This document shows, in pieces, positions 1 through 62,676 of a stretch of 62,676 bases of DNA; positions within the stretch are counted from its first letter, which is position 1, and the number at the start of each line of letters is the position of its first letter. The stretch is from a virus, in IMG/VR virus record IMGVR_UViG_3300030020_000016, positions 1 through 62,676 of that record; one strand, 5' to 3'. The notes below the pieces were generated by a model. That model did not search any database, was not told the DNA's origin, and saw only the letters and a list, made by a program, of their open reading frames with translations. The position numbers were made by a program, and so were the translations under genes.

Positions 1-136
1 TATTTGTAATAGAAGGTGTAGCAGGTTTCAAGATTTCCCTTGTCGCCTACATATTCAGACGGTTTATCCATCCCACCGCCCAAGGAAAGTTGATCCAGCC
101 CTCAACTTCTAAAAGAAATAATAGCCACCAACCGTC
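1..136. repeat. terminal direct repeat, left copy
   Basis: The first 136 bases recur at the right end of the window with one difference (position 10 is t here, g at 62550). This is the signature of a circular assembly or of terminal redundancy, so the true unit is about 62,540 bp and features at the two ends are contiguous. Confidence 0.95.
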
Positions 137-314
137 ACTATTATTAGTCACAGCCCAACCTTTGTAGCTTTGTACTTTAGCTATCTGCCATGTCCTGCTT
201 ATTTTACGTGACTTGATGTCCACTCACGGGTTTTAATGTCTTTTCCTTGACATAATGTCTATAAACTAATCAACGGTGTAATCATTCCGTTTTTTATTTT
301 TTCTTGTGATTAGC

Positions 315-445
315 ATATATCCATTGTAAAAAGAGCGAGTTAGCCGTTTTTATTCTGCCACTCTTCGGGATTCGTTTTTTGCTTTTACGCAACGCAGTTT
401 CGACTATAGTTTTTCATTACCCGTCGCTCTTTACAATAGATATAT
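315..445. repeat. long imperfect inverted repeat
   Basis: Arms 315-338 and 424-445 pair over about 22 bp with a 2-nt bulge and one U-G on the minus strand. The intervening 85 nt contains smaller helices (a TTGC/GCAA hairpin and CGGG/CCCG). It looks like a peripheral domain of a structured RNA; a hairpin origin is an alternative. Confidence 0.6.
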
Positions 446-712
446 ATAAACTGGCTGTTAGTTGCTTACAATCATTTAACTCATATGGACTTACAATCAT
501 ATATAAATGTATGCCAGATCCACTCTCCATGGAGCACCAGTTATTTTATAGGAGGACAGGAAATACAGTAACCCATCCTCACCATTATTTAAGCGTCTTC
601 GCTCGTGCAGTTTATCCTATACCCCTGCAAGGTTTTAGCAATGCCCCAACCATCGCATCACCAAGTAACGACCAGTAAATTTGTTTCCAATTCTTCGTAA
701 TTTGTCGCTTCC

Positions 713-886: not shown

Positions 887-915
887 AATATATCACAATT
901 GATAGCACTTGTCTA
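887..915 (-). promoter_or_regulatory. sigma-A-type promoter
   Basis: Minus strand: -35 TAGACA (910-915), a 17-nt spacer and -10 TATATT (887-892). It points at the HTH gene and at the gene-free structured region beyond it. Each hexamer has five of six consensus bases. Confidence 0.65.
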
Positions 916-1421: not shown

Positions 1422-1760
1422 TTATCTTTCTCCTCTGCGCAATTTTTCTATGAAGGTACGCTGATATGGCTGAAATTCTGTTAAATCATAATCAGCGTAT
1501 TCATGAACAATAATAGTTGCCAACGAATCTTTGCTTTCCTGTGTAGCCTGTTCATATTCTTGCATTTGGTTGGACAGCTGTTGCGCCATCCCTTGATTGT
1601 ACGCCTTGGACTGCTCAAACGTCGTCCTGCGTACATTTTCGTATTTAGGTGCAAAGTATTGATAAATGAAAAAACTATTGCCCTGCACGATCCACACAAT
1701 TCCTAAACCAGCCATAATAAAAAATATCCACGCCATAGCATTAATTAAAAAGTTCTTCAT
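1422..1760 (-). CDS. single-pass membrane protein, partner of lipoprotein
   Basis: A 112-aa protein with one N-terminal membrane helix (about residues 5-26), a YFAPKYENVRR segment, a Gln/Glu-rich likely coiled coil (55-85) and a charged C-terminus. Its stop lies one base before the lipoprotein start, so the two are probably made together and may form an envelope complex. I do not recognise an enzymatic function. Confidence 0.7.
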   Translation of the reverse strand: MKNFLINAMAWIFFIMAGLGIVWIVQGNSFFIYQYFAPKYENVRRTTFEQSKAYNQGMAQQLSNQMQEYEQATQESKDSLATIIVHEYADYDLTEFQPYQRTFIEKLRRGER

Positions 1761-1782
1761 AATTCAGCTCCTAAAATTTATT

Positions 1783-2103
1783 TTATAACATATTTGGCAA
1801 CAACCTGCGATCCTTATTTCTTTGAGGTGCTTGAGATTCATCCGCACTAAAAAACTTATCACAATGCAAACTTTCAAGATGTCCATACGCTCGGCAAATT
1901 TCCGGTCTAACTTCATGGATTGCACAACGTTTTCTTGTATCATCACGGTAACAGCACGACAGCATGCCTTTCTTTTGCCGCTTTAATATTTGCCGGTACT
2001 TATTTGGCATCTTGCTAATATAATGCTTAATGGTTACTATTTCTGCGTTTGTGGCAAGAATTACGCCGCAACATTCACCGCAATTTTGGCATTCATTATT
2101 CAT
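1783..2103 (-). CDS. YkgJ-like Cys-cluster protein
   Basis: A 106-aa protein starting with a CQNCGECC cluster, then a CCYRD segment and CAIHEVRPEICRAYG. This is the pattern of the YkgJ-type family annotated as zinc- or iron-chelating (CxxCxxCC followed by C..y..RP..CR). Its biochemical role is not established. It overlaps the next upstream stop by one base. Confidence 0.75.
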   Translation of the reverse strand: MNNECQNCGECCGVILATNAEIVTIKHYISKMPNKYRQILKRQKKGMLSCCYRDDTRKRCAIHEVRPEICRAYGHLESLHCDKFFSADESQAPQRNKDRRLLPNML

Positions 2104-2285
2104 TAATCAACCTTTCCCAAGTTTATTTCGCCAAACACTTCATCTACCGCTTCCATAACGATGTCATACGCTATTGATACGTCTTTTGCACAGACGTCAC
2201 CGCTTGCCACTTCATCACCATTAGCATCAACCAGCGAATAGTGGTAGCCGTTGTGTGATTGCGTAAAGTTTAATGTGTGACTCAT
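2103..2285 (-). CDS. small hypothetical protein
   Basis: A 60-aa acidic protein (MSHTLNFTQSHNGYHYS...) overlapping both neighbours (ATGA with the gene upstream). It looks like a small beta-strand/helix domain with no recognised motif. The operon position is the main support. Confidence 0.6.
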   Translation of the reverse strand: MSHTLNFTQSHNGYHYSLVDANGDEVASGDVCAKDVSIAYDIVMEAVDEVFGEINLGKVD

Positions 2286-2890
2286 ATCTCGTCAACCGCC
2301 TTTTCCCAACAAGCAGCTCTTAACCTAGGATCACAATTATAACGAGGCGGCAACAAACATGCATCAATATTATTTAAGCCATATTCAGACGAGCAATCAA
2401 AACGAACAGCATTAAAAACTTCATCAGAAATAGTTCCAATCTTGATAACTTCTTCTTTTATATTATCCGGTAATGGTTTATATGATCCCATCAGATTCAC
2501 TCTTTTCATAAAGTGACTGTTTAAATTCTTTTTTTGCCATTCGGGTATTTGCTGATCTAAATAAAAGCAATTTCCTAGTTTTCTATTTTGCAAATCAAAT
2601 AATGTTCCAGTAAATAATGTATCCGATATTTTGCAATTGTCTGTATTTATATATTTGTACTTCATCCCATAGCCTGGCTTAAATGGTTTAACTGCCGGTA
2701 ATCGCGGCATTAAATTTTCAGTAACAAGTCCCCACCATCCAATATTTGATTCTGCCCAAACGCCCGAAGCTCCTTTTGACCAAAACCTTCCATCGCTTGT
2801 TATTTTGAAAAATAATATATTGTTTTCACACTGAAACGGTGTATTAACTTTAACTTTTAGCACTTTCAAAATTTCGTTTAATTTGTCCAT
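2282..2890 (-). CDS. hypothetical protein (202 aa)
   Basis: No recognised family. It is rich in aromatic residues, with GRFWSKGASGVWAES and CDPRLRAACWEKAVDEI near its two ends. The start has an AGGAG site, and the 3' end overlaps the next gene by 4 bases. Confidence 0.6.
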   Translation of the reverse strand: MDKLNEILKVLKVKVNTPFQCENNILFFKITSDGRFWSKGASGVWAESNIGWWGLVTENLMPRLPAVKPFKPGYGMKYKYINTDNCKISDTLFTGTLFDLQNRKLGNCFYLDQQIPEWQKKNLNSHFMKRVNLMGSYKPLPDNIKEEVIKIGTISDEVFNAVRFDCSSEYGLNNIDACLLPPRYNCDPRLRAACWEKAVDEI

Positions 2891-2902
2891 TAGTATCCTC
2901 TC

Positions 2903-3223
2903 CTAATCCATTTTATCAAAATGCAATACATCGTATCCTTTCGATTCTAAATAACTAGCAAAAGCGTTTCTCGCCCTTACTCTGTCGTCGCCTTGACCAC
3001 CACCAACGCCAATTAAATAGCCGTTGCCGATCCAATGTACTTTACTACCGCAATGTAGCCCTGCGTCGCTCACAGCTTTAATTACTTTCTTTTCATTCCA
3101 TCGCGGCAATGTTAAAAATGTACTATCAAGATTGGCTGAACCACCATCGTCACCAGTTACAGCTTTTTTAGAAAACTGATACGCTTCTTTCAAATCTTCG
3201 GTTAATTTTTCGTATTTGTCCAT
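2903..3223 (-). CDS. hypothetical protein, Gly-rich segment
   Basis: A 106-aa protein from ATG 3223 (site AAGGAGG; start overlaps the DUF1064 stop as TGATG). It contains a YLIGVGGGQGDDRVRAR turn and a C-terminal ESKGYDVLHFDK. No family recognised. Confidence 0.6.
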   Translation of the reverse strand: MDKYEKLTEDLKEAYQFSKKAVTGDDGGSANLDSTFLTLPRWNEKKVIKAVSDAGLHCGSKVHWIGNGYLIGVGGGQGDDRVRARNAFASYLESKGYDVLHFDKMD

Positions 3224-7288: not shown

Positions 7289-7528
7289 TCAGTTCGCCCC
7301 CATATCGTAAGTTTTCTGCACATATTCCTGCAAGGTCACCACTGGTACTTCAATCTTTTCAACTGCCACCGGATAAATTATCATGTCAGCGTATTTCTTC
7401 TCAGCCATTTCGCGCGGCATTGTTTGGTATCCTCCATTCGGAACAGCCAGTACGACGGTTGGGTGTCCTAGTTCGGTGCGGTCTCTAGCCGACTTAATCC
7501 AGTTGTTACGGATTTCTAAATCAGTCAC
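7289..7528 (-). CDS. hypothetical protein (79 aa)
   Basis: Contains WIKSARDRTELGHPTVVLAV and a C-terminal PVVTLQEYVQKTY. No recognised family. It overlaps the upstream gene by 8 bases. Confidence 0.5.
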   Translation of the reverse strand: MTDLEIRNNWIKSARDRTELGHPTVVLAVPNGGYQTMPREMAEKKYADMIIYPVAVEKIEVPVVTLQEYVQKTYDMGAN

Positions 7529-7790
7529 GGCTCACAACTCCTTTTATCGGATCACACCATTGCAGCATATCCTCACAAATTTCGATTGGTTCCGTTTCAT
7601 GGCGCACCATTCGCGTAAACAGCTGAAATTCATCACAGCCGCTGGTCTTAATACTGGTAACTCCTTTTAATTTGCAGCGTGTCGATAAGCATGTTTTTCC
7701 GCCACGTGTGAAGTAACCTATTTCCTTAAGGTAGTAGCAGGACGTGCATTGGTTATTCTGTCTGCGCCACTCGTCGTTATTCTGATCCAT
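7521..7790 (-). CDS. Cys-rich protein, probable metal site
   Basis: An 89-aa protein with CTSCYYL, CLSTRC, CDEF and CEDMLQWC spacings; the first four cysteines resemble phage zinc-ribbon proteins. Function unknown. Confidence 0.5.
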   Translation of the reverse strand: MDQNNDEWRRQNNQCTSCYYLKEIGYFTRGGKTCLSTRCKLKGVTSIKTSGCDEFQLFTRMVRHETEPIEICEDMLQWCDPIKGVVSRD

Positions 7791-7968
7791 CTATGATAGC
7801 CTTCTTTCTCATTCTCCAATTATATAAAATTTTAATTTGACAATTAGCTAACGCCACGGACCTTTGAGCCATCGGCTTACTAATTTTGTCGTTTAAAAAC
7901 ATCGTTAAAGCTTTTTCTCTAATCTCTTGCCAACGCAAAACCCATGAATAATATTCAAGATTCGTCAA
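7777..7968 (-). CDS. small helical protein next to DnaB
   Basis: A 63-aa basic, helical protein (WRMRKKAIIDGSE tail) directly downstream of the helicase gene. Could be a helicase-loading accessory by position; no motif supports this. Confidence 0.5.
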   Translation of the reverse strand: MTNLEYYSWVLRWQEIREKALTMFLNDKISKPMAQRSVALANCQIKILYNWRMRKKAIIDGSE

Positions 7969-7977
7969 TTAGTCCAC

Positions 7978-9363
7978 CTACTTTCTTTTATACGTACTTT
8001 TCTTCTTCGGTTCGGGCTGCCCTGGCTGTGATACGATAGCACCAAATTGTGCTGCAGGTTCGCCCTGCTCGTCAGAATACCAATCCAAAGCAATCGTCTT
8101 ATCATCCGTAAACGTCAATATGTCACCGTTAAACCGCATTGAAATAGCATGTGACTTGTCCGCATTACGAGCCTTTCTAATCTCAGCTAAAATATTCCAC
8201 GGTGCAAAAGCGGGCTGGTCGTCCTTCTCAATCTCTTTAAGATTTAGCCACAAGTCAGCTTCCTGTTTCATTTGAGATGACTGCGCCAGCGTTTCACCAT
8301 CAGTAAGCTGTGCTAACATAATTACCACCATGTTAAGCGACTGAGCCATTGTCTTTAGCCTCATGGCTGCCGATTTAAGAATCTTCCAATCGTCTTTTTT
8401 AGCAACATTCGAACAATCCATACGCCCGATATAATCTACGATACAAACCTCTATTCCATATTGCGACTTAGCCCGCCTTACCTCGGCTGTAACATTTGAA
8501 ATTTGTAAATCTGGAATTGTAAGAGTGTGCACTTGACCGGATGATATTTGGCTAAGAATGTCATTTATTTGTTGCATTTCTTCATCCGTTGCGGTTCCGT
8601 TTCTTAACTTCTTATGAGACACTTTCGCCATGTACGAATCCCAGCGTAAAGCCATCTGAGAAGCACCCATTTCAGAATTAAGATAAAATATCGGTCTTTT
8701 CTGAACTATGCCTATTTCTTTAGCTATGTTCATTGCAAACGCTGACTTACCAACGCCAGTTTGTGCCGACAATATGATTAGATCACCCTTACTAAATCCA
8801 CCGCTTATTTCGTTAAGCTTCTTAAACGAGGTATAAAGCATCTGTTTGTTACGCTTTTCTTCATTCCGCATATCGGTTGCAACGTTTAAACAATTGTCTG
8901 CTAATTGAATTGGTGAGGTATAAACTCTTTCAATTCCAGTAGAATCCAGTTCAGATAATGAGGTTTCAGTGCTTTGCAATATCTGTTCACTTTTGGCGTC
9001 ATCATTTGCCAACTCTCGAATGTCATCCGATATTCTGAGAAGCTTACGTATTTTTGTCGTTTCATGCAGCCGATCTATTCGCGATTTAATACCGCCTGAG
9101 ATTAGCTGTGTCGTTAGCATAATGTAAGACATACCAAAGTCTATTTTTTTAACTTCTTCGCGGTTCTCGGTCAACACGGACTGCACAGTGACCTTTCTAT
9201 TAGCGTTGTACATATCGGTTATGATTAAGAATAGCTGTCTCAGGCTATCCTGCGTAAAATCTTCTGGCGTTACCTCTGAAATTATCTCGAGTAGGTATTT
9301 TTCCTTTTGAAGCATGGCGGCTATTAACTCTCTTTCACAATCTATATCGAATCCTGCTGCCAC
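7978..9363 (-). CDS. dnaB: replicative DNA helicase, DnaB family
   Basis: A 461-aa hexameric replicative helicase. The N-terminal DnaB domain (ERELIAAMLQKEKYL) is followed by a RecA-like core with Walker A LSAQTGVGKSAFA (about residues 193-205), YLNSEM, Walker B CIVDYIGRM and the C-terminal AEIRKARNADKS arginine-finger region. It would unwind the fork after loading by the DnaD-like initiator at 9960-10733. The C-terminal PEPKKKSTYKRK tail is phage-specific. Confidence 0.92.
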   Translation of the reverse strand: MAAGFDIDCERELIAAMLQKEKYLLEIISEVTPEDFTQDSLRQLFLIITDMYNANRKVTVQSVLTENREEVKKIDFGMSYIMLTTQLISGGIKSRIDRLHETTKIRKLLRISDDIRELANDDAKSEQILQSTETSLSELDSTGIERVYTSPIQLADNCLNVATDMRNEEKRNKQMLYTSFKKLNEISGGFSKGDLIILSAQTGVGKSAFAMNIAKEIGIVQKRPIFYLNSEMGASQMALRWDSYMAKVSHKKLRNGTATDEEMQQINDILSQISSGQVHTLTIPDLQISNVTAEVRRAKSQYGIEVCIVDYIGRMDCSNVAKKDDWKILKSAAMRLKTMAQSLNMVVIMLAQLTDGETLAQSSQMKQEADLWLNLKEIEKDDQPAFAPWNILAEIRKARNADKSHAISMRFNGDILTFTDDKTIALDWYSDEQGEPAAQFGAIVSQPGQPEPKKKSTYKRK

Positions 9364-17284: not shown

Positions 17285-17983
17285 TTATTTCTTTTCAATC
17301 CATGATCTGATATAATTAAGGCAGGAATTAAAATCTTTTTGCTTAACATCTGTATAAGACGAAACAGCAAACCTATCTTTGATTTCACGGTGAAGTGCTG
17401 AAAAATATTGACGCTTACGTTTTGAATAAACAATACCACGAATAAAATCGTCGTTTTTTTCATCATATGAATTTTCATCTAGTCGTGTGTACACTCGCAC
17501 GGCTATTTCTTTTTGCAGTTTTCGTTGTGCCGCGTGATCGATTGTGAGTTGGTTGTCAAGCTTTTCACTGATTACTTTAATTTCCGTATCATGAGTATCG
17601 ACGCGCTCAGTAATTTTGCTTTGAAGTCTAAGGGTTTCAATTAAAATTTCTTGCTGTGTCATTTTGGGAAGGTTGCTAGAAGCTTGCTCTTCTATTTCGT
17701 TAAATGCGTTAATATATTTTACTTTCCATTCTAGCGCATCTTTTCCAGTAAACCCCATTGCTAAAAGTGAAAATCCATCACGATTCATTAAATATATTTT
17801 TTGGTTTCTGCCGTACATATCAGGTGCATATGTTTCTGAAAACATCGGCTCAATATTGAGCACATCTTTTTTGATAGATTCTATATCTCTTAAAACGTTT
17901 TTATGTTCTTTGCCAAATTTAGCGGCTACGTTTCTACTTGACACTATAACTTTCCCATTTAATATTTCTACTAAGTTTCCCAT
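17285..17983 (-). CDS. rha: Rha-family antirepressor with ORF6C-type C-terminus
   Basis: A 232-aa protein. Rha domain: VSSRNVAAKFGKEHKNVLRD, YLMNRDGFSLLAMGFTG, WKVKYINAFNEIE. A helical linker and a C-terminal DNA-binding region typical of antirepressors (AVRVYTRLDENSYDEKNDD...) follow. Rha proteins interfere with infection unless regulated; fusions to such C-termini act as antirepressors. Start ATG 17983 follows AGGAG; the longer frame to 18016 overlaps the upstream gene. Confidence 0.85.
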   Translation of the reverse strand: MGNLVEILNGKVIVSSRNVAAKFGKEHKNVLRDIESIKKDVLNIEPMFSETYAPDMYGRNQKIYLMNRDGFSLLAMGFTGKDALEWKVKYINAFNEIEEQASSNLPKMTQQEILIETLRLQSKITERVDTHDTEIKVISEKLDNQLTIDHAAQRKLQKEIAVRVYTRLDENSYDEKNDDFIRGIVYSKRKRQYFSALHREIKDRFAVSSYTDVKQKDFNSCLNYIRSWIEKK

Positions 17984-17985
17984 AA

Positions 17986-18342
17986 TCATTCTCCTTTTTT
18001 TAAATAATCGCACCATTGAATAAAACTATCCACAATTGGTTTTTGATTTGTGCTATCAGCCCATCCGCAAAACCCGATAAACCCTTCCGCGTTAAACGAT
18101 ATACATTCACGATTAGTAAAATAGCTACCATTTACACGTAAAAAGCATGTAATTAAATCACCATTTGTTTTGTATTTACTTTTTATTTTTTCCGACATTC
18201 GCAATGATATTTCTGTACTTTTGCGAAGCTTTTTTAATGTTTTGTTAAGCATCATAATCAATATGCAAATGTCACCACTATCTATATCGTCGTAAGATAA
18301 CTTACAGTCTTTAAAATATTGTCTGGCTTTTTCGCTTGTCAT
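17986..18342 (-). CDS. hypothetical protein (118 aa)
   Basis: MTSEKARQYFKDCKLSYDDI..., helical N-terminus then a beta-rich end with FNAEGFIGFCGWAD. It abuts the Rha gene. No recognised family. Confidence 0.6.
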   Translation of the reverse strand: MTSEKARQYFKDCKLSYDDIDSGDICILIMMLNKTLKKLRKSTEISLRMSEKIKSKYKTNGDLITCFLRVNGSYFTNRECISFNAEGFIGFCGWADSTNQKPIVDSFIQWCDYLKKGE

Positions 18343-18363
18343 GCTGTGCCTCCATTATTTTTA

Positions 18364-18519
18364 TTAAATAAATTCTTTCATGACTGTTCCTTTTTTTAGC
18401 TGTTTGAGAAGCATAATTCGCAAAACCTGTACCATCGGGATACCTTCTCGTTTACATAACTCCTTAAACTGTTTTTTTTCTGCCGGTGCTGCGTAAAATG
18501 TTATTCTTTCTAATTCCAT
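18364..18519 (-). CDS. ribbon-helix-helix-like protein (51 aa)
   Basis: MELERITFYAAPAEKKQFKE, then KREGIPMVQVLRIMLLKQLK: a beta-strand plus two helices, the layout of Arc/MetJ-type DNA-binding proteins. AAGGGGGTG precedes the ATG. It is the first gene of the leftward early operon, behind an AT-rich promoter-like region (18520-18610), so it may be its regulator. Confidence 0.65.
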   Translation of the reverse strand: MELERITFYAAPAEKKQFKELCKREGIPMVQVLRIMLLKQLKKGTVMKEFI

Positions 18520-18612
18520 TTGTTTACACCCCCTTTCTATATTTATATACTATCACTATTGTTTTAAAATTGCAATACTTATTTTTACAAAATTAATTAA
18601 AAATATGCAAAC

Positions 18613-18642
18613 AAAAAAAACCCCCGCCAATTAAGACGAGGG
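18613..18642 (-). terminator. rho-independent terminator of late operon
   Basis: Minus strand: CCCTCG/CGGGGG stem (18621-18642) followed by eight T (18613-18620). It closes the structural/lysis operon and separates it from the early operon. Confidence 0.8.
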
Positions 18643-18663
18643 CTAGTAGTTTTACAGGTTTTA

Positions 18664-19317
18664 TTATTTAATTTTAGCGATTAATTTTGAGATTGCGCTT
18701 GAGTCGCCAGCACTAGCTAAAACGACCAACGTTTTAAGAACAATAACTTCAAACGGGTCGCGAACATCTTTCACGTACCAACTTTTAGAATCTCCGTTTT
18801 CTTCAGCTGTCAATCTTGTAATTTCCGTATCAGCCCAAAGAATACCTTTTTGAAGTAATGCTGAATTTTCGGTAGTCAATGTAGTCGTAACTGCTGCCAC
18901 TGCCGCCGTAGTGATTACGCTTTTTGCTGTTTCCACGGTATCTGCTGTCATAACAATATTCACCACTTCCGTTTGTGCGTCATTAGCCGTTACTGTAACC
19001 GCTGTGCCTGTGTATCCTGTAAGTGTTGGAGTGAATGTATAAGAATCTCCAGCCGTCAAGCCGCTAAGAGTAACGGTACCATCTGTGCCTGTTACTGCTG
19101 GTGTCGGTGTAACTGCACCAATTTGATAAGCTAACGAAACCCCTACTAATGGTTTTTCTGCTGAATCTTTTGCTATAATTTGAATTGTTGACATATAATT
19201 TTCCTTCTTTTCTGTTATTTTATTCATTAGGTATTCTAATAGGTTCGGCATGTATTTATCTGCCGCTTTCAGTACGTACGGTAATATCCATTTTAATATC
19301 GGCGTTAGGTATTGCAC
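18664..19317 (-). CDS. Ig-like/transthyretin-like domain protein at end of late operon
   Basis: GTG 19317 follows AGGAGG at 6 nt. Residues 1-41 form an amphipathic/hydrophobic segment (LTPILKWILPYVLKAADKYM). From an internal MSTIQIIAKDS (19194, own AAGAAGG site) comes a beta-sandwich carboxypeptidase-regulatory-like domain (GVSLAYQIG...GTDGTVTLSGLTAGDSYTF), then an Ala/Thr-rich helix. It could be made in two forms. The position next to the lytic enzymes makes a holin or surface role possible; neither is proven. Confidence 0.6.
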   Translation of the reverse strand: MQYLTPILKWILPYVLKAADKYMPNLLEYLMNKITEKKENYMSTIQIIAKDSAEKPLVGVSLAYQIGAVTPTPAVTGTDGTVTLSGLTAGDSYTFTPTLTGYTGTAVTVTANDAQTEVVNIVMTADTVETAKSVITTAAVAAVTTTLTTENSALLQKGILWADTEITRLTAEENGDSKSWYVKDVRDPFEVIVLKTLVVLASAGDSSAISKLIAKIK

Positions 19318-25695: not shown

Positions 25696-28600
25696 CTAAT
25701 ATGATTGTACTAGATAACTACCACGCCTATCAACGCCTATCCCTGACGTGTTTACTATTTGCACAAAGAATCCTGTTTTTGTCATACTTATGGTTGGCAG
25801 TAAGACAGTATCTCCACTTATGCCATCCGTAATTGTTACTTGTGGAAATGGAATTGTGTGGAAATTTGAGTCATAGACAATTGTTGTCCCGGCAGCAGGT
25901 ATCGAGATGTTTTTAGATTCAATAACATCTGGAACGTCAATTGAGAATGAAAAATCTGTGACAACCGCTGTTATATTTGTATCGGTAGTGCTTAGAATAA
26001 TTCTAAAATCGAACATTCTCGCAGCATACTGACCAACGTAAAAATCTAACCAATTACTCCAAATACCGTCATCGCCAGCCGTTCGAATCTGAACATCAAA
26101 TTTGACATACGGGCTGTAATCTCCGTCCCAATTAGCTAAAGAATCAACGTCGTCAACTAAGTCAAAAGATCCGTTAATACTATCACCATATGCCGTATAG
26201 TTCACGCTGACGTTACAAAGAGAACTTACGCCAATATCGACTATATGTGATTCGGGTATTGTGTATGTTCCTGTACTTGTTGAACCTCCATAAAAATCTA
26301 CATTTGCAACAGAATCTACATCGGTAATATCATCAAAACTCCCTTGCCCTGTTAGCCATAAAGCATTATCACTTTCACGGATGCTAAGACCAGTTGTTTT
26401 ATTGCCTAACCATCCAGTATCCCTTTCGTCGGTTGTTACTATTACGTTTGCTGTATATCTTGCCCCTGTTATGCTTATTTCTGCTGGAATTGTTGAATAA
26501 ACTGTTTGATATACTGCTGATATGAAATAATTTCCATTGCCTTGTACTTGAAATTTTGTATTGTATGTTTGACCGAGTATTTCGGCTGAACTCCATGCGT
26601 CACCTTTGCGAATTTCATAAGCAATTGGCGATCTAAAATCGTTTATGGCTGTCCATGAAATATACATGTTTCCATTTTCATAGTACGTGGTTAATGCTGT
26701 TACATTTGGAAGTGGCGTTGTGAGTGAAGTTCCTTTAATTGTATATTGGTAAACTGAAACGTCCGAAAGGTTTTGTTCGCCAGCACCATAAATATTAATT
26801 GACGTATATTTAATATAAATAGTTTTTCCAATATCATCTTTTGTGAATGGATATTTAAAAACAGCATCATCCATGCGGACAAATTGAGAATTAATAGGAT
26901 GACTTGCAATCGTACTACTGTAAACGCCACGTCTTAAATATGATAGCTGGTATGTGTTTAATGCAGTCAATGTTGCAGTTTCATAAGAGATAAATTCGCC
27001 ATCGACATAACAAAGAGTATTAAAATTGTCAGCATCGTTTTGTGTGCCGCTAACAAGTGCTCCATCCGACATTGATAAATTAACAATTGGAGTATTAGCT
27101 GTGTCAGGATCAACGCCTAACTGTAATGGTGTAGCTAATATTCCTTGTCGAGCATTGCCGACTATTGAACCTATTTTCTTGTAAGTAGTCATATCTTCAG
27201 AAATCCATACGTTGGCACCGCCCCACTTATCACCGCCCGATCCATACATCCATACTTCGAAGCCTAGACCCGAAGACACTAGTATGTCAGGTGCTTCAAA
27301 TATAACTGGATAATTAATATTTTCTGGTGATTCTTCAAGGTTAATACTGCCCCTATTCATATCCTGTGTTTCGTAAGTTGGTGCTGAAGAAACGCCACTA
27401 GGATTGCTTTCGCAAGTTAGTTCAAGTGAATAATCTTTACTGTTTTCTTTTATTGATGTAACTCTGATTGATGTAATACCTAAACCAGTAAGGGCTAATG
27501 TTAGTGTTACGGGGTCCATTGGCTCCAATAATACAAATTCAGGAGTAACTGTAAACGTATAAATATTTCTGCGGTAAAGTTTTCGCTGTAAAACTGTTTG
27601 TGCAACCGTTTGAGCAAGCGATGCGGACATTATTTCGTGATGGCTTAATGTGTCTGCTTGCCGCAACCCATTTATATCAATGTCACCCTGATCTGTTGCG
27701 TAAACCATGCTTGTGTTGTACTGATTCGACCTGTCCATATATTCGAGAGGAACAACATTCCATGCATCGTCTTGGTCAGTACGCGTTATTACAAGAGTGT
27801 CATCCCCTTGATCGACAATATTATCATCCATCAAATCGTAAATTGGCGTTAATCCATCATAATATGGAATAAATTTGGCTTTACCTTGACTAAATACATA
27901 TTCAGAATTAGTTGTTTCCATTAGGCTAGTTATGATGCTATTTGCTTGTTGACTAGAATCATAAGTTGGCGAAATTAGCAATTGATTAGTTGTACAGTAG
28001 TTTGAATAAACGTCCATATTATCAATTAAAACCGCAGGAAAGTTTGCGCCAAATACCGTGCTTGTAAGTAATTGATAGATTATGTCGCGTGGGTTTGCAT
28101 CGGTCGCTGTGTAGCTAACTGACGCGGTTATAGCATTATAATTTATGCGAATATAAAGTGGATCGTCACGGTCGTTGCCATCGGTGCGGTCGTCAAAATT
28201 AAATGTGTAAACATACGTTCCTGTAATATTATTACCAAACGAATCTTTTTTTTGAGCAATATCATAATATCGGCTATTGATTGTTGTCCAGTAATTACCA
28301 CCGCTACCGCCGTATACATATTCCTGAACATTTATATTACTTGACCAGTTTGAAATTTCAATTACTTTTATATACGCTACTTGTTTGACTTTTACGATTG
28401 ATGGTGCTGATTGCTGAGATTGGCATAGCCCATATACCTCAATATTAAAGTTTGGCAAACTGGAACTATCGCCTAAATCTATAATGCCAGCCAAATAAGA
28501 AGTTCCCGAATATGTCAATGCTTTTTCGGGATGGTTGGTGAGAAGATACCCCCACGGGCTTTGAGCAATAGAACCGTTAAAGAAAGTAAGACCTAATGCT

Positions 28601-49570: not shown

Positions 49571-52213
49571 TCAACGTTTTTCTTTCATTTTTTTCATCAT
49601 TTCTATAAATGAATTTATGCTACCATCACCTGTTATCATTTTGCCCCATTCGACGATACCTTCAGCAGCATCATCATGTTTATTTCCACCTGCTTTTTGA
49701 AAGCTCATAATTGCAAGGTAAAAATCGGGCCAGCGTTTCATCCAGTCTTTTGGCAAGTAAACATGTTTCATAACAAACGTTGCCCCAGTAAGAATACGAG
49801 CCATTTTATTTTCGGATTGGTGAAACCATGAAACGTTTATTTGTTTAGTTTTGTATTTTTCCCAGATAATCCGATCAACATTTCGAGCAAAGCCCTTACC
49901 ACCGTTATTAGATTCTATTTTGGCATGGTCAACTTTGTTTTCATAGATTCTTTTGGCTGTTTCTGGTTCCGTTATTGTCATCGGTTCTAGTGTGAAGTAA
50001 ACATCTGTTATAAATCCTTCGCCATCCTTGACGCCGCCGCAAATATTAATTAAATAATCATCGCCACTATCGGCAGTATCGCAATAAGATATACGCTTTT
50101 CAATATTATCAGGAAGTTTGTCATAGGTTAATATCTGTTCAAACAATCTTCCTTTAACGTCAACTGGTTCTTGATAATAATTTGCCCTAAAAATATTCGG
50201 GTCCATATTTTCTTTTAACGTTTCAAAATCTTTTTGCGGTAAAATCCCTGGGCAAGTAAGATTGCCGCCATATTCAACAGGTACCGCAAATTTAAACCAA
50301 TCCGGACCCATTTTACCATCCATGATACGACCGCATAAATCCTTTGTATTCCAGCGTGTATGATTGATTATATCGATTGATCCTTCCCCGCCTTTTTCAG
50401 AACGAGAGAGGAAAGTCCCTGTATACCAATTCCATATACCATCAAGCACACGCTCATTATACGATTCTTCTGCTGACTTAATTGGGTCGTCGATTATTGT
50501 GCAGTTGGACAAAAGTATTTCTCCAGCAAACATGTTGTGCGTATTTTCAACTTGGATGTCATAAACTGGCTGTTTTTCTGTACAATATCTTCTAATTTCA
50601 ACAACGGTTTCTTTTTTAATTTGTGGATTCGTTGATGGCATGCTGAACATAATGTTGCCATGTTCTCCGGGACGTTGTTTGCAGTATTTTCGTCTAGATG
50701 GTGTAGCCTTAAGTCTGTTTTCCTTGTTAGCTTCCCAACTCTCATATATTCTGTTATCGTTTCCTTTTTCCCACACGCCACGCAAGCGAAACCATCTCTT
50801 TCGAACACAACTTTTCGCATTTCTCTGTATAGTTTTGCATAACTCTTGCCATCTTTGTAACTCGGGTTCCCTGATCCAACCATGGACCTTGAGTGCACAA
50901 GATTTGAGCATTTTTTCGAGCAATAAGTCACAGAACTGTTTGCAGGATGAAACTCTGTGCCACATATCGGACATATTATGTTGTGTAATCTTCGTGGATT
51001 TACATAATTTATTTTTCGGCATTCTAACGAACAATATTTTTTTGCATGACGTTCTAATCTTTTTCCGCAAACTATACAAAAATGGCTGTTTTTGATAGCA
51101 TGATCTGCTTGAGAACATTCTAATGAGCAGTAATAGTCTACGTGTCCTCGCCTTATCGATTTGTCGTAATCGCATTTTTCTCTGACAAATTCTTTCCCGC
51201 ATCGTTTGCAAATTAATTTTACAGATTTGTTTCTTATTTTTTGATAACAGTTTCTGCACGTCAACCCTCTTCCACCTTTCGGGTTTCCACAAATAACGCA
51301 CGTTTTGTTCTTCTTGCTCTTCAATGGCATAAACTGTTTCGCCTTTTCTAAAACTGCTAACATCTCGATACGTTCCGTTTCCGGAATAAATTCGATGTTC
51401 GGGCGTGCATGTAATACTTTTTCCACCTGATGTGGTGATTTTAATAAATTCATTAGCATATGACTCCTTACTTACTTGAACTGACTCGTAAGATAGATTT
51501 TTATTTTCTATATCATATGATAACACTTTTATAGGTATGTTACAAGAACACATTAATTCTATTGGCACGTTTCCAATCTCAGTTTTTATAATGGTTCCCT
51601 CTGCTAAGCAATTTCCGCCCCTGCCAGTCAAAGTTCCTTCAAGACCTGCTCCAAGATAGTTAAAGAAACAACCGTCTAAAGCCCACTTCATAAACGAACT
51701 ATTGCCCTTTGCCACCATCGTTTTAGGAAATATGTCAGAGAAAACAATATCCGCTGGCAGGTTCTTTTTCATCATGATTCCATCACGCACAAACCGGCTC
51801 ATATCTGCTGCCAAGTCATTGTTGTATGACACGGTAATGATTTTGTTTTGGTTATCCTTGCCAAGAATCCAATCACAGAAATTTGTGAGCGTACGAGATT
51901 TACCGAAACGTGGGCTAATGTTTTGCATGAGGTTCGTATATACCCTGCCGTCAACAATTTTATCCCATTCGACTACATGATCTGGATACCATGATGGAAC
52001 GTTTGGGCTGTGGCATAAATCCCAAAACAGTTTCTTTGTTAATCTACGTTCATATAGTGCCTGTAGTGTCTCACACATCAGCCACAAGTGCCAACGGTCT
52101 GACTTGTAGAAGTCTGGCGATACCATACAGCAAAATGCCCACAAGCTTTCTCTAGCCTTGCGAATATTAATTTCACGTTGGAGTACCAGCATTCGTGCTA
52201 AATCTTGTTGCAT
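49571..52213 (-). CDS. terL: terminase large subunit interrupted by an intein
   Basis: An 880-aa precursor. N-extein: Walker A-like ISPRFGKSRT (about 99-108), IITVSYNNDLAADMSRFVRD. Intein: residues 202-570. C-extein: Walker B TIIDDPIKSAEES directly after the splice site, then nuclease motifs DTADSGDDYL, KIESNNGGKGFA and NKHDDAAEGIVEWG. After splicing the protein would be 511 aa, normal for TerL. It packages DNA with TerS (55423-56337). The intein sits exactly between the GRGGN loop and Walker B, so packaging depends on splicing. Confidence 0.92.
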   Translation of the reverse strand: MQQDLARMLVLQREINIRKARESLWAFCCMVSPDFYKSDRWHLWLMCETLQALYERRLTKKLFWDLCHSPNVPSWYPDHVVEWDKIVDGRVYTNLMQNISPRFGKSRTLTNFCDWILGKDNQNKIITVSYNNDLAADMSRFVRDGIMMKKNLPADIVFSDIFPKTMVAKGNSSFMKWALDGCFFNYLGAGLEGTLTGRGGNCLAEGTIIKTEIGNVPIELMCSCNIPIKVLSYDIENKNLSYESVQVSKESYANEFIKITTSGGKSITCTPEHRIYSGNGTYRDVSSFRKGETVYAIEEQEEQNVRYLWKPERWKRVDVQKLLSKNKKQICKINLQTMRERICQRKMRLRQIDKARTRRLLLLIRMFSSRSCYQKQPFLYSLRKKIRTSCKKILFVRMPKNKLCKSTKITQHNMSDMWHRVSSCKQFCDLLLEKMLKSCALKVHGWIREPELQRWQELCKTIQRNAKSCVRKRWFRLRGVWEKGNDNRIYESWEANKENRLKATPSRRKYCKQRPGEHGNIMFSMPSTNPQIKKETVVEIRRYCTEKQPVYDIQVENTHNMFAGEILLSNCTIIDDPIKSAEESYNERVLDGIWNWYTGTFLSRSEKGGEGSIDIINHTRWNTKDLCGRIMDGKMGPDWFKFAVPVEYGGNLTCPGILPQKDFETLKENMDPNIFRANYYQEPVDVKGRLFEQILTYDKLPDNIEKRISYCDTADSGDDYLINICGGVKDGEGFITDVYFTLEPMTITEPETAKRIYENKVDHAKIESNNGGKGFARNVDRIIWEKYKTKQINVSWFHQSENKMARILTGATFVMKHVYLPKDWMKRWPDFYLAIMSFQKAGGNKHDDAAEGIVEWGKMITGDGSINSFIEMMKKMKEKR
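50494..51330 (-). CDS. HNH homing endonuclease in +1 frame within the TerL intein
   Basis: A 278-aa product from ATG 51330 (AAAAGG about 11 nt upstream). It is read one base downstream of the TerL frame. Four treble-clef-type fingers (CVICGNPKGGRGLTCRNC; CKRCGKEF...CSLEC; CIVCGKRL...CSLEC; CPICGTEF...CSKKC) precede an HNH core: VVFERDGFACVACGKK, LRLHHLDENTANNVPENMAT, CSACHQRIH. It must be made by independent initiation or frameshifting, not by simple translation of TerL. It would cut inteinless terL and drive intein homing. The family assignment is certain from motifs; expression is inferred. Confidence 0.88.
   Translation of the reverse strand: MPLKSKKNKTCVICGNPKGGRGLTCRNCYQKIRNKSVKLICKRCGKEFVREKCDYDKSIRRGHVDYYCSLECSQADHAIKNSHFCIVCGKRLERHAKKYCSLECRKINYVNPRRLHNIICPICGTEFHPANSSVTYCSKKCSNLVHSRSMVGSGNPSYKDGKSYAKLYREMRKVVFERDGFACVACGKKETITEYMRVGKLTRKTDLRLHHLDENTANNVPENMATLCSACHQRIHKLKKKPLLKLEDIVQKNSQFMTSKLKIRTTCLLEKYFCPTAQ
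50504..51610 (-). mobile_element. intein (Hint-type) in terL, 369 codons
   Basis: It begins at Cys202 (CLAEGTIIKTEIGNVPIEL, block A), has block B TCTPEHRIYSGNGTY and ends with ETVVEIRRYC, PVYDIQVENTHNMFAGEILL and SN followed by extein Cys571. Nucleophiles Cys1 and Cys+1 and the terminal Asn are present; the penultimate residue is Ser instead of the usual His. Between the Hint halves (about residues 302-532) the in-frame translation is a Lys/Arg/Cys-rich tract of no recognisable domain, because that DNA encodes the HNH endonuclease in another frame. Confidence 0.92.
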
Positions 52214-61818: not shown

Positions 61819-61849
61819 AAAGACGTGGTATTAGTGGTACCACGTCTTT
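61819..61849. promoter_or_regulatory. perfect 12-bp inverted repeat, operator or terminator
   Basis: AAAGACGTGGTA, 7-nt spacer, TACCACGTCTTT, then GTTTTAC on the plus strand. It shares ACGTGGTAT with the operator at 56458-56474. Either a repressor site upstream of the RepA-like gene or a terminator for plus-strand transcription. Confidence 0.6.
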
Positions 61850-61893
61850 GTTTTACAATAGCTAATCAACCCCGATTTATGAACTTTTTATAT

Positions 61894-61959
61894 TCGCCAT
61901 TTGCAAGAATCGAACTTACACAAGTTCCAAAAATGACATGTTATGTATAAATTAGGCGA
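61894..61959 (-). ncRNA. tRNA-like element with T-arm
   Basis: On the minus strand GTAAG-TTCGATT-CTTGC (61903-61919) is a perfect T-arm with the GTTCGATTC consensus, and TCGCC/GGCGA closes the element. D- and anticodon arms do not fold normally, so it is at best a degenerate tRNA or a tRNA-mimicking part of the larger RNA. Confidence 0.35.
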
Positions 61960-62416
61960 CCTTTCGACCGCCCAATCCATCAAGGAGACATTTTATGACC
62001 CACGTCCGGCAATCACCCCGTCAGTGAGATATTGGGGATGGTTTAATCCTTCCACCATCAAAGATATATAGTTTTACAATCCACCTCTAAGCTATCAACA
62101 GCGGCTATCTAACGCATTATAGCGTTTCGACCTGCCCCATTCGCAGGATTATATATTTTCGCAATCACCTGAACAAGGTTATTAGCCACGCGGTTATTGC
62201 TAAGTACATTCTTTTTAAAAAATAGCACCTATGGCTAGTGTCTTACAGCCACCATTTAATCCTACACCAGATAAGAACCATGTTGCTATTTATACGATAC
62301 ACAGCCCCGTCCTTCTGTGTATCTTGGCTGTCCCCACAATTTACACCACATAAATTGCATACTAAGAATCAGCTTCATGACAATTTGCACTGTCAGCTGG
62401 CAGCCTCCATAATTTA

Positions 62417-62504
62417 AAAGGGTATAGGAATCGAACCTACGCCATTATTTCCACCTGATAATTATCAATCAGGAATTTGTATCTTAGCCACCATGTTACC
62501 CCAT
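62417..62504 (-). ncRNA. tRNA-like element with T-arm and acceptor-like stem
   Basis: On the minus strand ATGGGGT pairs with ACCCTTT (6 of 7), T-arm GTAGG-TTCGATT-CCTAT, and a CCTGAT/ATCAGG arm with an 8-nt loop where an anticodon arm would be. The length (88 nt) fits a long-variable-arm tRNA, but the D-arm is poor and the anticodon cannot be assigned. Confidence 0.4.
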
Positions 62505-62540
62505 ATTAATGGCGGTTTACGGTACCGCCAAACGTAATGC

Positions 62541-62676
62541 TATTTGTAAGAGAAGGTGTAGCAGGTTTCAAGATTTCCCTTGTCGCCTACATATTCAGAC
62601 GGTTTATCCATCCCACCGCCCAAGGAAAGTTGATCCAGCCCTCAACTTCTAAAAGAAATAATAGCCACCAACCGTC
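62541..62676. repeat. terminal direct repeat, right copy
   Basis: Matches bases 1-136 except position 62550. It marks the overlap that circularises the sequence. Confidence 0.95.

Follow-up and report, generated by a model that had tools for sequence, protein, structure and literature searches.

A gene-free region of a circular phage genome very probably carries a structured RNA from a modular, apparently uncatalogued family

What occupies roughly 1.4 kb of DNA without genes in a phage genome? The question is raised by the window analysed here, the whole 62,676-nucleotide stretch of IMG/VR virus record IMGVR_UViG_3300030020_000016, for which a preliminary description had proposed a large noncoding RNA spanning the contig junction. 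The phage genome is circular and 62,540 bp long (window positions 62541–62676 duplicate 1–136 with one mismatch). A contig from another metagenome sample (L083, 99.2 per cent identical) carries the gene-free region uninterrupted, and the circular junction is therefore real. The region and its surroundings are laid out as follows.

1–712, minus strand: 5' half of the gene-free RNA region; no credible coding frame; contiguous in L083; continues across the junction into 62540–61850
61850–62540, minus strand: 3' half of the gene-free RNA region; no credible coding frame; contiguous in L083
713–880, minus strand: MerR-type helix-turn-helix ORF of 55 aa (Pfam MerR_1, E 9e-10), between promoter and RNA
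887–915, minus strand: sigma-70-like promoter, TAGACA-17-TATATT with TG before the -10; consensus match, scanned on L083; predicted start at the MerR ATG
1420–929, minus strand: conserved lipoprotein-like gene, upstream of the MerR-type ORF
61819–61849, minus strand: perfect 12-bp inverted repeat at the region end; terminator-like, with a poor U tail on the minus strand
61797–61459: small winged-helix-like protein, weakly Rep-like, downstream of the inverted repeat

A conserved coding frame had been named beforehand as the finding that would speak against an RNA, and none was found. The longest frames in the gene-free region (58, 59 and 99 aa) match nothing in Pfam and nothing in PHROG at a significant level; in L083 the 58-aa one is disrupted, at window position 163, by an insertion of 14 nt. 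The promoter that had been reported at 887–915 is present, but promoter-like sites are not enriched (four found against 7.6 expected from shuffles), and a terminator scan did not call the inverted repeat at 61849–61819.

Several observations concern the neighbouring genes themselves. The MerR-type ORF at 713–880 resembles a truncated IS607-type TnpA (transposase N-terminus) and is 62 per cent identical to an ORF of L086 that overlaps a tnpB-like gene, which is followed by Transposase-1 RNA (RF03014; this L086 locus is at 1592–3065). The same lipoprotein-like gene that precedes the window RNA is directly followed on its 3' side by Polynucleobacter-1 RNA in L042 (7070–7214) and by tRNA genes at the corresponding place in L019.

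Joined across the junction, the 1,403 nt of the region fold with an MFE of −394.9 on the minus strand (z −4.2, 40 dinucleotide shuffles) and of −312.3 kcal/mol on the plus strand (z −3.1, dinucleotide shuffles), and a repeat fold over 1,395 nt gave z-scores of −4.9 and −3.9, respectively. Three coding controls of the same size ranged from −0.7 to +0.8 on the minus strand and from −0.3 to +1.2 on the plus strand. Local 150-nt windows of the region are only mildly unusual in their folding, and the signal must therefore be mostly long-range; in the global fold, predicted 5'–3' closing helices total 36 bp and involve the MerR-type ORF. Three features of the fold are of particular use here.

315–447, minus strand: long-range helix of the predicted fold, arms 447–424 and 338–315
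61947–61980, minus strand: 15-bp hairpin with a GAAA tetraloop; five G-U pairs possible in the minus transcript only
117–272, minus strand: strain-variable part, from comparison with L083 and the predicted fold

The first corresponds to a long-range helix described earlier as 22 bp, and is recovered at 445–426/336–315 as about 20 bp with one bulge; it has no homologues. In the second, the five G-U pairs of hairpin 61980–61947 need a minus-strand transcript, which gives the minus strand as the RNA direction and agrees with the minus-only G-U pairing noted previously for the helix at 61955–61972. In the third, strain substitutions at positions 270, 265 and 137 lie within predicted helices, where pairing is preserved (A-U to G-U, G-U to G-C and U-G to C-G), and the 14-nt insertion in L083 reads as an extra short stem-loop. 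The folding scores and the minus-only G-U pairs together support the earlier proposal that the minus strand encodes a long noncoding RNA with structure.

A path to relatives of this RNA was opened by a 41-nt blastn match (E 0.4) in Lactococcus phage P008, where it falls in unannotated sequence at the right end; neither half of the region had matched phages at E 1e-5, and the P008 match surfaced at E 10. The element that emerges from the comparison is a compact core motif, in which an outer helix P1 ending in GG/CC is followed by UGC, a hairpin P2, GUUAAAUGA(G), a variable joint, which may include an additional hairpin, and AACUAACAG. In the window it lies in the 5' half of the RNA region.

449–542, minus strand: core motif, matched by covariance model R1; P1 at 542–537/454–449 (AACUGG/CCAGUU)
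534–536, minus strand: UGC of the core
481–533, minus strand: extended P2 region of the core
472–480, minus strand: GUUAAAUGA of the core
464–471, minus strand: joint of the core
455–463, minus strand: AACUAACAG of the core
552–580, minus strand: P0-like hairpin GAGGAUGGG-UUACUGUAUUU-CCUGUCCUC, preceding the core; helix p 0.99

Window positions 542–449 contain, in order, a P1 closed by GG/CC, UGC, GUUAAAUGA and ACUAACAG, the elements by which the core family is defined. The window P2 is diverged and enlarged, with about three regular pairs at its base and then a long irregular insertion. Model R1 was built from alignment A2 (MAFFT, 19 sequences) with the window left out, and it matches 548–443 on the minus strand at 40.5 bits (E 6.7e-7 in 625 kb).

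Covariation of the core is strong. In A2 the covariation score is 0.652 against 0.197 ± 0.032 for shuffled alignments, slid structures score at most 0.16, and both sides change in 11 of the 13 core pairs. With arms taken by position alone, P1 beyond the fixed GG/CC gives 100 pairs in 34 distinct arm pairs, where 28.7 are expected (maximum 53 in 5,000 shuffles), and P2, allowed four registers, gives 118 pairs against 56.6 expected from shuffled arms (maximum 83). The covariation that had been sought in other phages is thereby borne out for the 94-nt core.

These results also bear on other accounts of the locus, namely that it is a decayed tRNA cluster, the remnant of dead genes, or a replication origin in which the inverted repeats work at the DNA level. 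The tRNA-like pieces described below are degenerate, and a weakly Rep-like winged-helix gene lies next to the region, both of which would suit such an origin or decay. Nevertheless, the G-U pairs favour one strand, strain changes preserve pairs, the core shows covariation and has been retained in unrelated phages, and GC-skew shows no clear turn at the gene-free region, so that accounts of this kind are very improbable. There is far better reason to think that the region is a real structured RNA belonging to an uncatalogued modular family, which we regard as very probable.

How widely the core occurs was assessed by pattern. The blocks GUUAAAUGA and AACUAACAGCC are also found, on the reverse strand, in a large gene-free stretch of the L107 phage, and a two-block scan of 2.9 million viral contigs returned 41 stretches, including the window phage's own near-identical contig; with GGUGC added to the pattern there were 44 viral stretches. 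Because many of the viral matches are Skunavirus, independent lineages are fewer, perhaps fifteen to twenty. Bacterial genomes gave 10 pattern matches, the credible ones being four loci in Clostridia MAGs (L169, L171, L173 and L174). Matches in L160, L163, L177 and L178 were judged to be chance, as was L172 despite 31.5 bits with R1 (E 1e-4), and L170 (a Clostridia MAG), L175 (Staphylococcus caeli) and L176 (Oceanibaculum) were set aside as hosts since the matching DNA in these reference bacterial assemblies appears to be Lactococcus Skunavirus and is probably contamination.

When 398 genomes belonging to one phylum were surveyed, the motif turned up in the seed genome and in one weak place only. 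A DNA search of 50 records gave short matches to the RNA region only, and in relatives sharing the lipoprotein gene (L004–L082) nothing at their loci matches the RNA region; a 1.5-kb gap in L004 consists of small genes and not of RNA. The nearest phage, 3300031577 (portal 57–58 per cent identical), shows nothing comparable in its two contigs. When the window RNA was aligned with other gaps of one compared phage, the result did not exceed shuffled, and the blocks shared with one of those gaps were noticed by eye.

The preliminary description had pointed to GOLLD and ROOL. Both are large phage RNAs near tRNA islands, and GOLLD forms a homo-oligomeric RNA nanocage (PMC12286853). The likeness in size, phage setting and tRNA neighbourhood is genuine (PMC12286853): GOLLD (RF02032) is a large phage noncoding RNA with tRNA islands nearby and sometimes internal tRNAs, and ROOL (RF03087) lies by tRNA islands and has a complex secondary structure. 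However, in an Rfam 15 scan of the window no family reaches gathering, and a scan of the contiguous copy in L083 to E 10 gave sub-threshold noise only, including tRNA-type matches of 16–17 bits. The GOLLD model (gathering 150 bits) and the ROOL model (gathering 99.1 bits) have no match in the window phage and none at the motif in relatives; since control genomes in the RF03087 search were also blank, the ROOL negative rests on cmscan of the window and L083. A divergent GOLLD or ROOL RNA is accordingly a most improbable reading, and the proposed kinship is not upheld.

The pistol ribozyme (RF02679) was considered because the strings GGUGC and GUUAAAU, which we take it to share with the core motif, recur there in permuted order; its model (gathering 34.5 bits) is unmatched at the motif. 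No description of the core motif was found in the open-access literature, and it is apparently uncatalogued. Since the GOLLD, ROOL and pistol models are unmatched and no paper was found, the core is best placed in a new family among structured phage noncoding RNAs, and its covariation in other phages supports the new class that had been suggested as a possibility. Large structured phage RNAs are among the least understood RNAs known, and the new family brings with it strong covariation and a working covariance model.

The core is also carried by named phages. In Bacillus phage Eldridge (KU253712, 32019–32075) it lies where no genes are annotated, with tRNAs alongside and ahead of the portal gene; phage f2b1 has two copies, and in Vibrio phage ZQ26 the core sits within 1.1 kb lacking annotated genes. 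Eldridge, f2b1 and L145 share a wider arrangement, with a UUACUGGUGUU-loop hairpin before the core and, after it, a second hairpin, which has GGUUAAA at the end of its loop and CCAAU behind it. The P0-like hairpin at 552–580 of the window weakly resembles the UUACUGGUGUU hairpin of these three phages, a likeness in sequence that is only suggestive of homology. The second hairpin has a counterpart as well.

62031–62077, minus strand: 3' element, GUAAAACUAUAUAUCUUU with hairpin GAUGGU-GGAAGGAUUAA-ACCAUC (62059–62037) and CCCAAU; common to Eldridge, f2b1, L145 and L199

Where the window 3' element has GUAAAACUAUAUAUCUUU, f2b1 has ACAAAAUAUAUCCUUU. The 3' hairpin occurs in six members, and by inspection its stems differ in sequence and stay paired, which extends the covariation to one further hairpin; MFE folding of the hairpin alone picks another register. 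In 3.46 Mb the hairpin pattern was found in the window, Eldridge, f2b1, L145 and two unrelated places. The distance from core to 3' hairpin is about 900 nt in the window versus about 45 in Eldridge, and these 900 nt have no homologue beyond near-identical strains; similarly, the roughly 400 nt from the core to the first tRNA-like element have homologues in near-identical strains only. L199 has both outer hairpins with a different module in place of the core, and in L200 the outer hairpins are adjacent, from which it follows that the RNA is modular.

A UUACUGGUGUUCUAG...AAGACGAAGA hairpin lacking the core is present in L189, L191, L193, L198–L201 and L203, with tRNAs near several of them, and is probably a separate phage RNA motif. 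At L115 1420–1476, L136 and other Skunavirus loci there is a shorter motif-like copy lacking P2 (GGUGC-UUAAAUG-...-UUGACAGCC), in tandem before the core.

The remaining recognisable modules of the window RNA resemble parts of tRNAs.

62417–62504, minus strand: tRNA-like element 1; acceptor AUGGGGU/ACCCUUU (6 of 7 pairs), T arm GUAGG-UUCGAUU-CCUAU
61896–61937, minus strand: tRNA-like element 2; 7-bp acceptor GUCAUUU/AAAUGGC, 11-nt connector, T arm GUAAG-UUCGAUU-CUUGC

Element 1 has no recognisable D or anticodon arm and reaches 16.9 bits with the Rfam tRNA-Sec model, below threshold. Element 2 lacks both arms, given that its connector is only 11 nt, and reaches a sub-threshold 16.2 bits with the Rfam tRNA model, the best score of that model, against the 29 bits of the RF00005 gathering for a full cloverleaf with anticodon. 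Like tmRNA and tRNA (RF00023 and RF00005), the elements have an acceptor helix and a T arm with a UUCRANN loop; they differ in the missing arms of element 2 and in their sub-threshold scores of 16–17 bits, and no tmRNA was found in the window. It is unlikely that these matches are due to chance. The whole genome has three instances of a 5-bp stem capped by a UUCRANN loop, and two of the three are inside the region, on the minus strand, both with UUCGAUU and then a fitting acceptor strand. The earlier suggestion of tRNA-like neighbours thus holds in that tRNA-like elements exist, but they lie inside the region rather than beside it, and ARAGORN calls no tRNA in the window.

Such elements co-occur with the core. 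A scan for a 7-bp acceptor and a 5-bp T arm with a connector of 6–36 nt, over 3.43 Mb of redundant sequence on both strands, gave 16 distinct cases, 15 of them in motif-bearing phages. Fourteen lie near a core and on its strand, at −60 to +1435 nt; another belongs to the window phage itself and comes from a fragment, L089, in which the core is not included, and the last (L029) is elsewhere. Most of the fourteen are Skunavirus and independent lineages are therefore few, comprising Skunavirus, the 120–130 kb phages L130 and L144, L162 and the window phage. Complete tRNAs and tmRNA genes, too, are frequent near the core. That the core is repeatedly paired with tRNA-like elements without a decoding arm is in itself unusual, and this pairing may explain the cutting and stability of long noncoding phage RNAs. 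In L144, a phage tmRNA gene with tag VKTKLNIIANTQLAVA lies at 7517–7862, beside tRNAs and the motif.

Two readings of this arrangement can be set side by side. The first, to which we give an even chance and which is the best explanation overall, is a minus-strand modular phage noncoding RNA that would be cut at its tRNA-like elements and protected by its core. The transcript would probably start at the promoter at 915–887, pass through the MerR-type ORF and end near the hairpin at 61849–61819, with the compact core being combined, phage by phage, with the GGUUAAA hairpin, tRNAs and acceptor/T-arm elements. An acceptor stem and T arm form the minimal shape recognised by RNase P (and RNase Z), and it is on this account that host RNase P and RNase Z might cut the precursor at the tRNA-like elements into stable RNA pieces; processing of this kind, argued by analogy, is a tentative proposal that falls somewhat short of probable. 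The global fold counts against this explanation, giving part of both elements other partners: the 3' strand of element 1 can alternatively pair with 626–615, and GUCAUUUUUG of element 2 is predicted to pair with 849–839 instead.

The second reading, which has not quite an even chance, is an array of separate small RNAs (core, tRNA-like elements and 3' hairpin) that are co-transcribed and then cut, like a phage tRNA operon. The motif does lie among tRNAs or tRNA-like pieces in Skunavirus, Eldridge, f2b1, L126, L145 and L162, and the modules occur separately: L199 and L200 lack the core, and in L138 and L140 the core is accompanied by nothing but a terminator-like hairpin. Several related regions resemble a row of motif, tRNAs and tRNA-like pieces whose global folding energy is ordinary, and some fold like shuffled sequence (P008, z −1.0; L126, −0.9; L107A, −1.5). 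The folding signal of the window, in contrast, is dominated by long-range pairing, and modules are bridged both by the predicted closing helices (36 bp in all) and by the 445/315 helix; the closing helices, for their part, involve the MerR-type ORF and have no support from covariation.

On the modular-RNA explanation the core would bind a protein or polymerase, and the untranslated transcript would thereby stay intact or keep elongating. The core often begins a few nucleotides past a stop codon, at the front of a noncoding stretch, and precedes terminator-like hairpins (L138, L140) or ribosome-binding sites (L119, L141, L155), a placement that fits a role in protecting or prolonging the transcript; a protective or antitermination role is itself a doubtful proposition. 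HK022 put and the Bacillus EAR are compact processive antitermination RNAs in phage or operon leaders. They are likened to the core by possible mechanism alone. The same placement, just past stop codons and ahead of terminator-like hairpins, ribosome-binding sites or extended untranslated sequence whose transcription would call for antitermination, also suits a core that is a cis-acting regulator, either of this processive kind or as a riboswitch-like leader. There is, however, no consistent gene downstream of the core, and a cis-acting regulator is hard to reconcile with the four Clostridia loci, which look like stand-alone RNAs with their own terminator; the latter also favour a role in trans or in stability over antitermination. 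We consider the cis-acting reading unlikely.

A more ambitious proposal, possible but on the unlikely side, is that the members form a widespread modular phage RNA family in which a protein- or polymerase-binding core and tRNA mimics act as a single large machine or scaffold during infection, which would add a third kind to GOLLD and ROOL, or serve as decoys against tRNA-cutting host defences. Transcription, processing and function should be testable at the bench, as phages in culture carry members, namely Lactococcus P008 and bIL170 (motif at about 27475–27527 of PP906165.1), Bacillus Eldridge and Vibrio ZQ26.

Some further observations were made on individual loci. In the Clostridia MAGs L169, L171, L173 and L174 the core opens an apparent small RNA gene of about 250–300 nt that includes a long helix as well as a terminator-like hairpin; in L169, L171 and L173 it is flanked by a PHP-domain-like gene on one side and a prs-like gene on the other. 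The L107 phage (94 kb, 3300031521_000033) carries its core on 740 nt of the minus strand (8010–7270) and has two more gene-poor stretches, at 8080–8620 and 17820–19035, that are possibly structured RNAs. In the window itself, the terminase large subunit gene (49571–52213) contains an intein-like insertion (Pfam Intein_splicing, residues 229–568).
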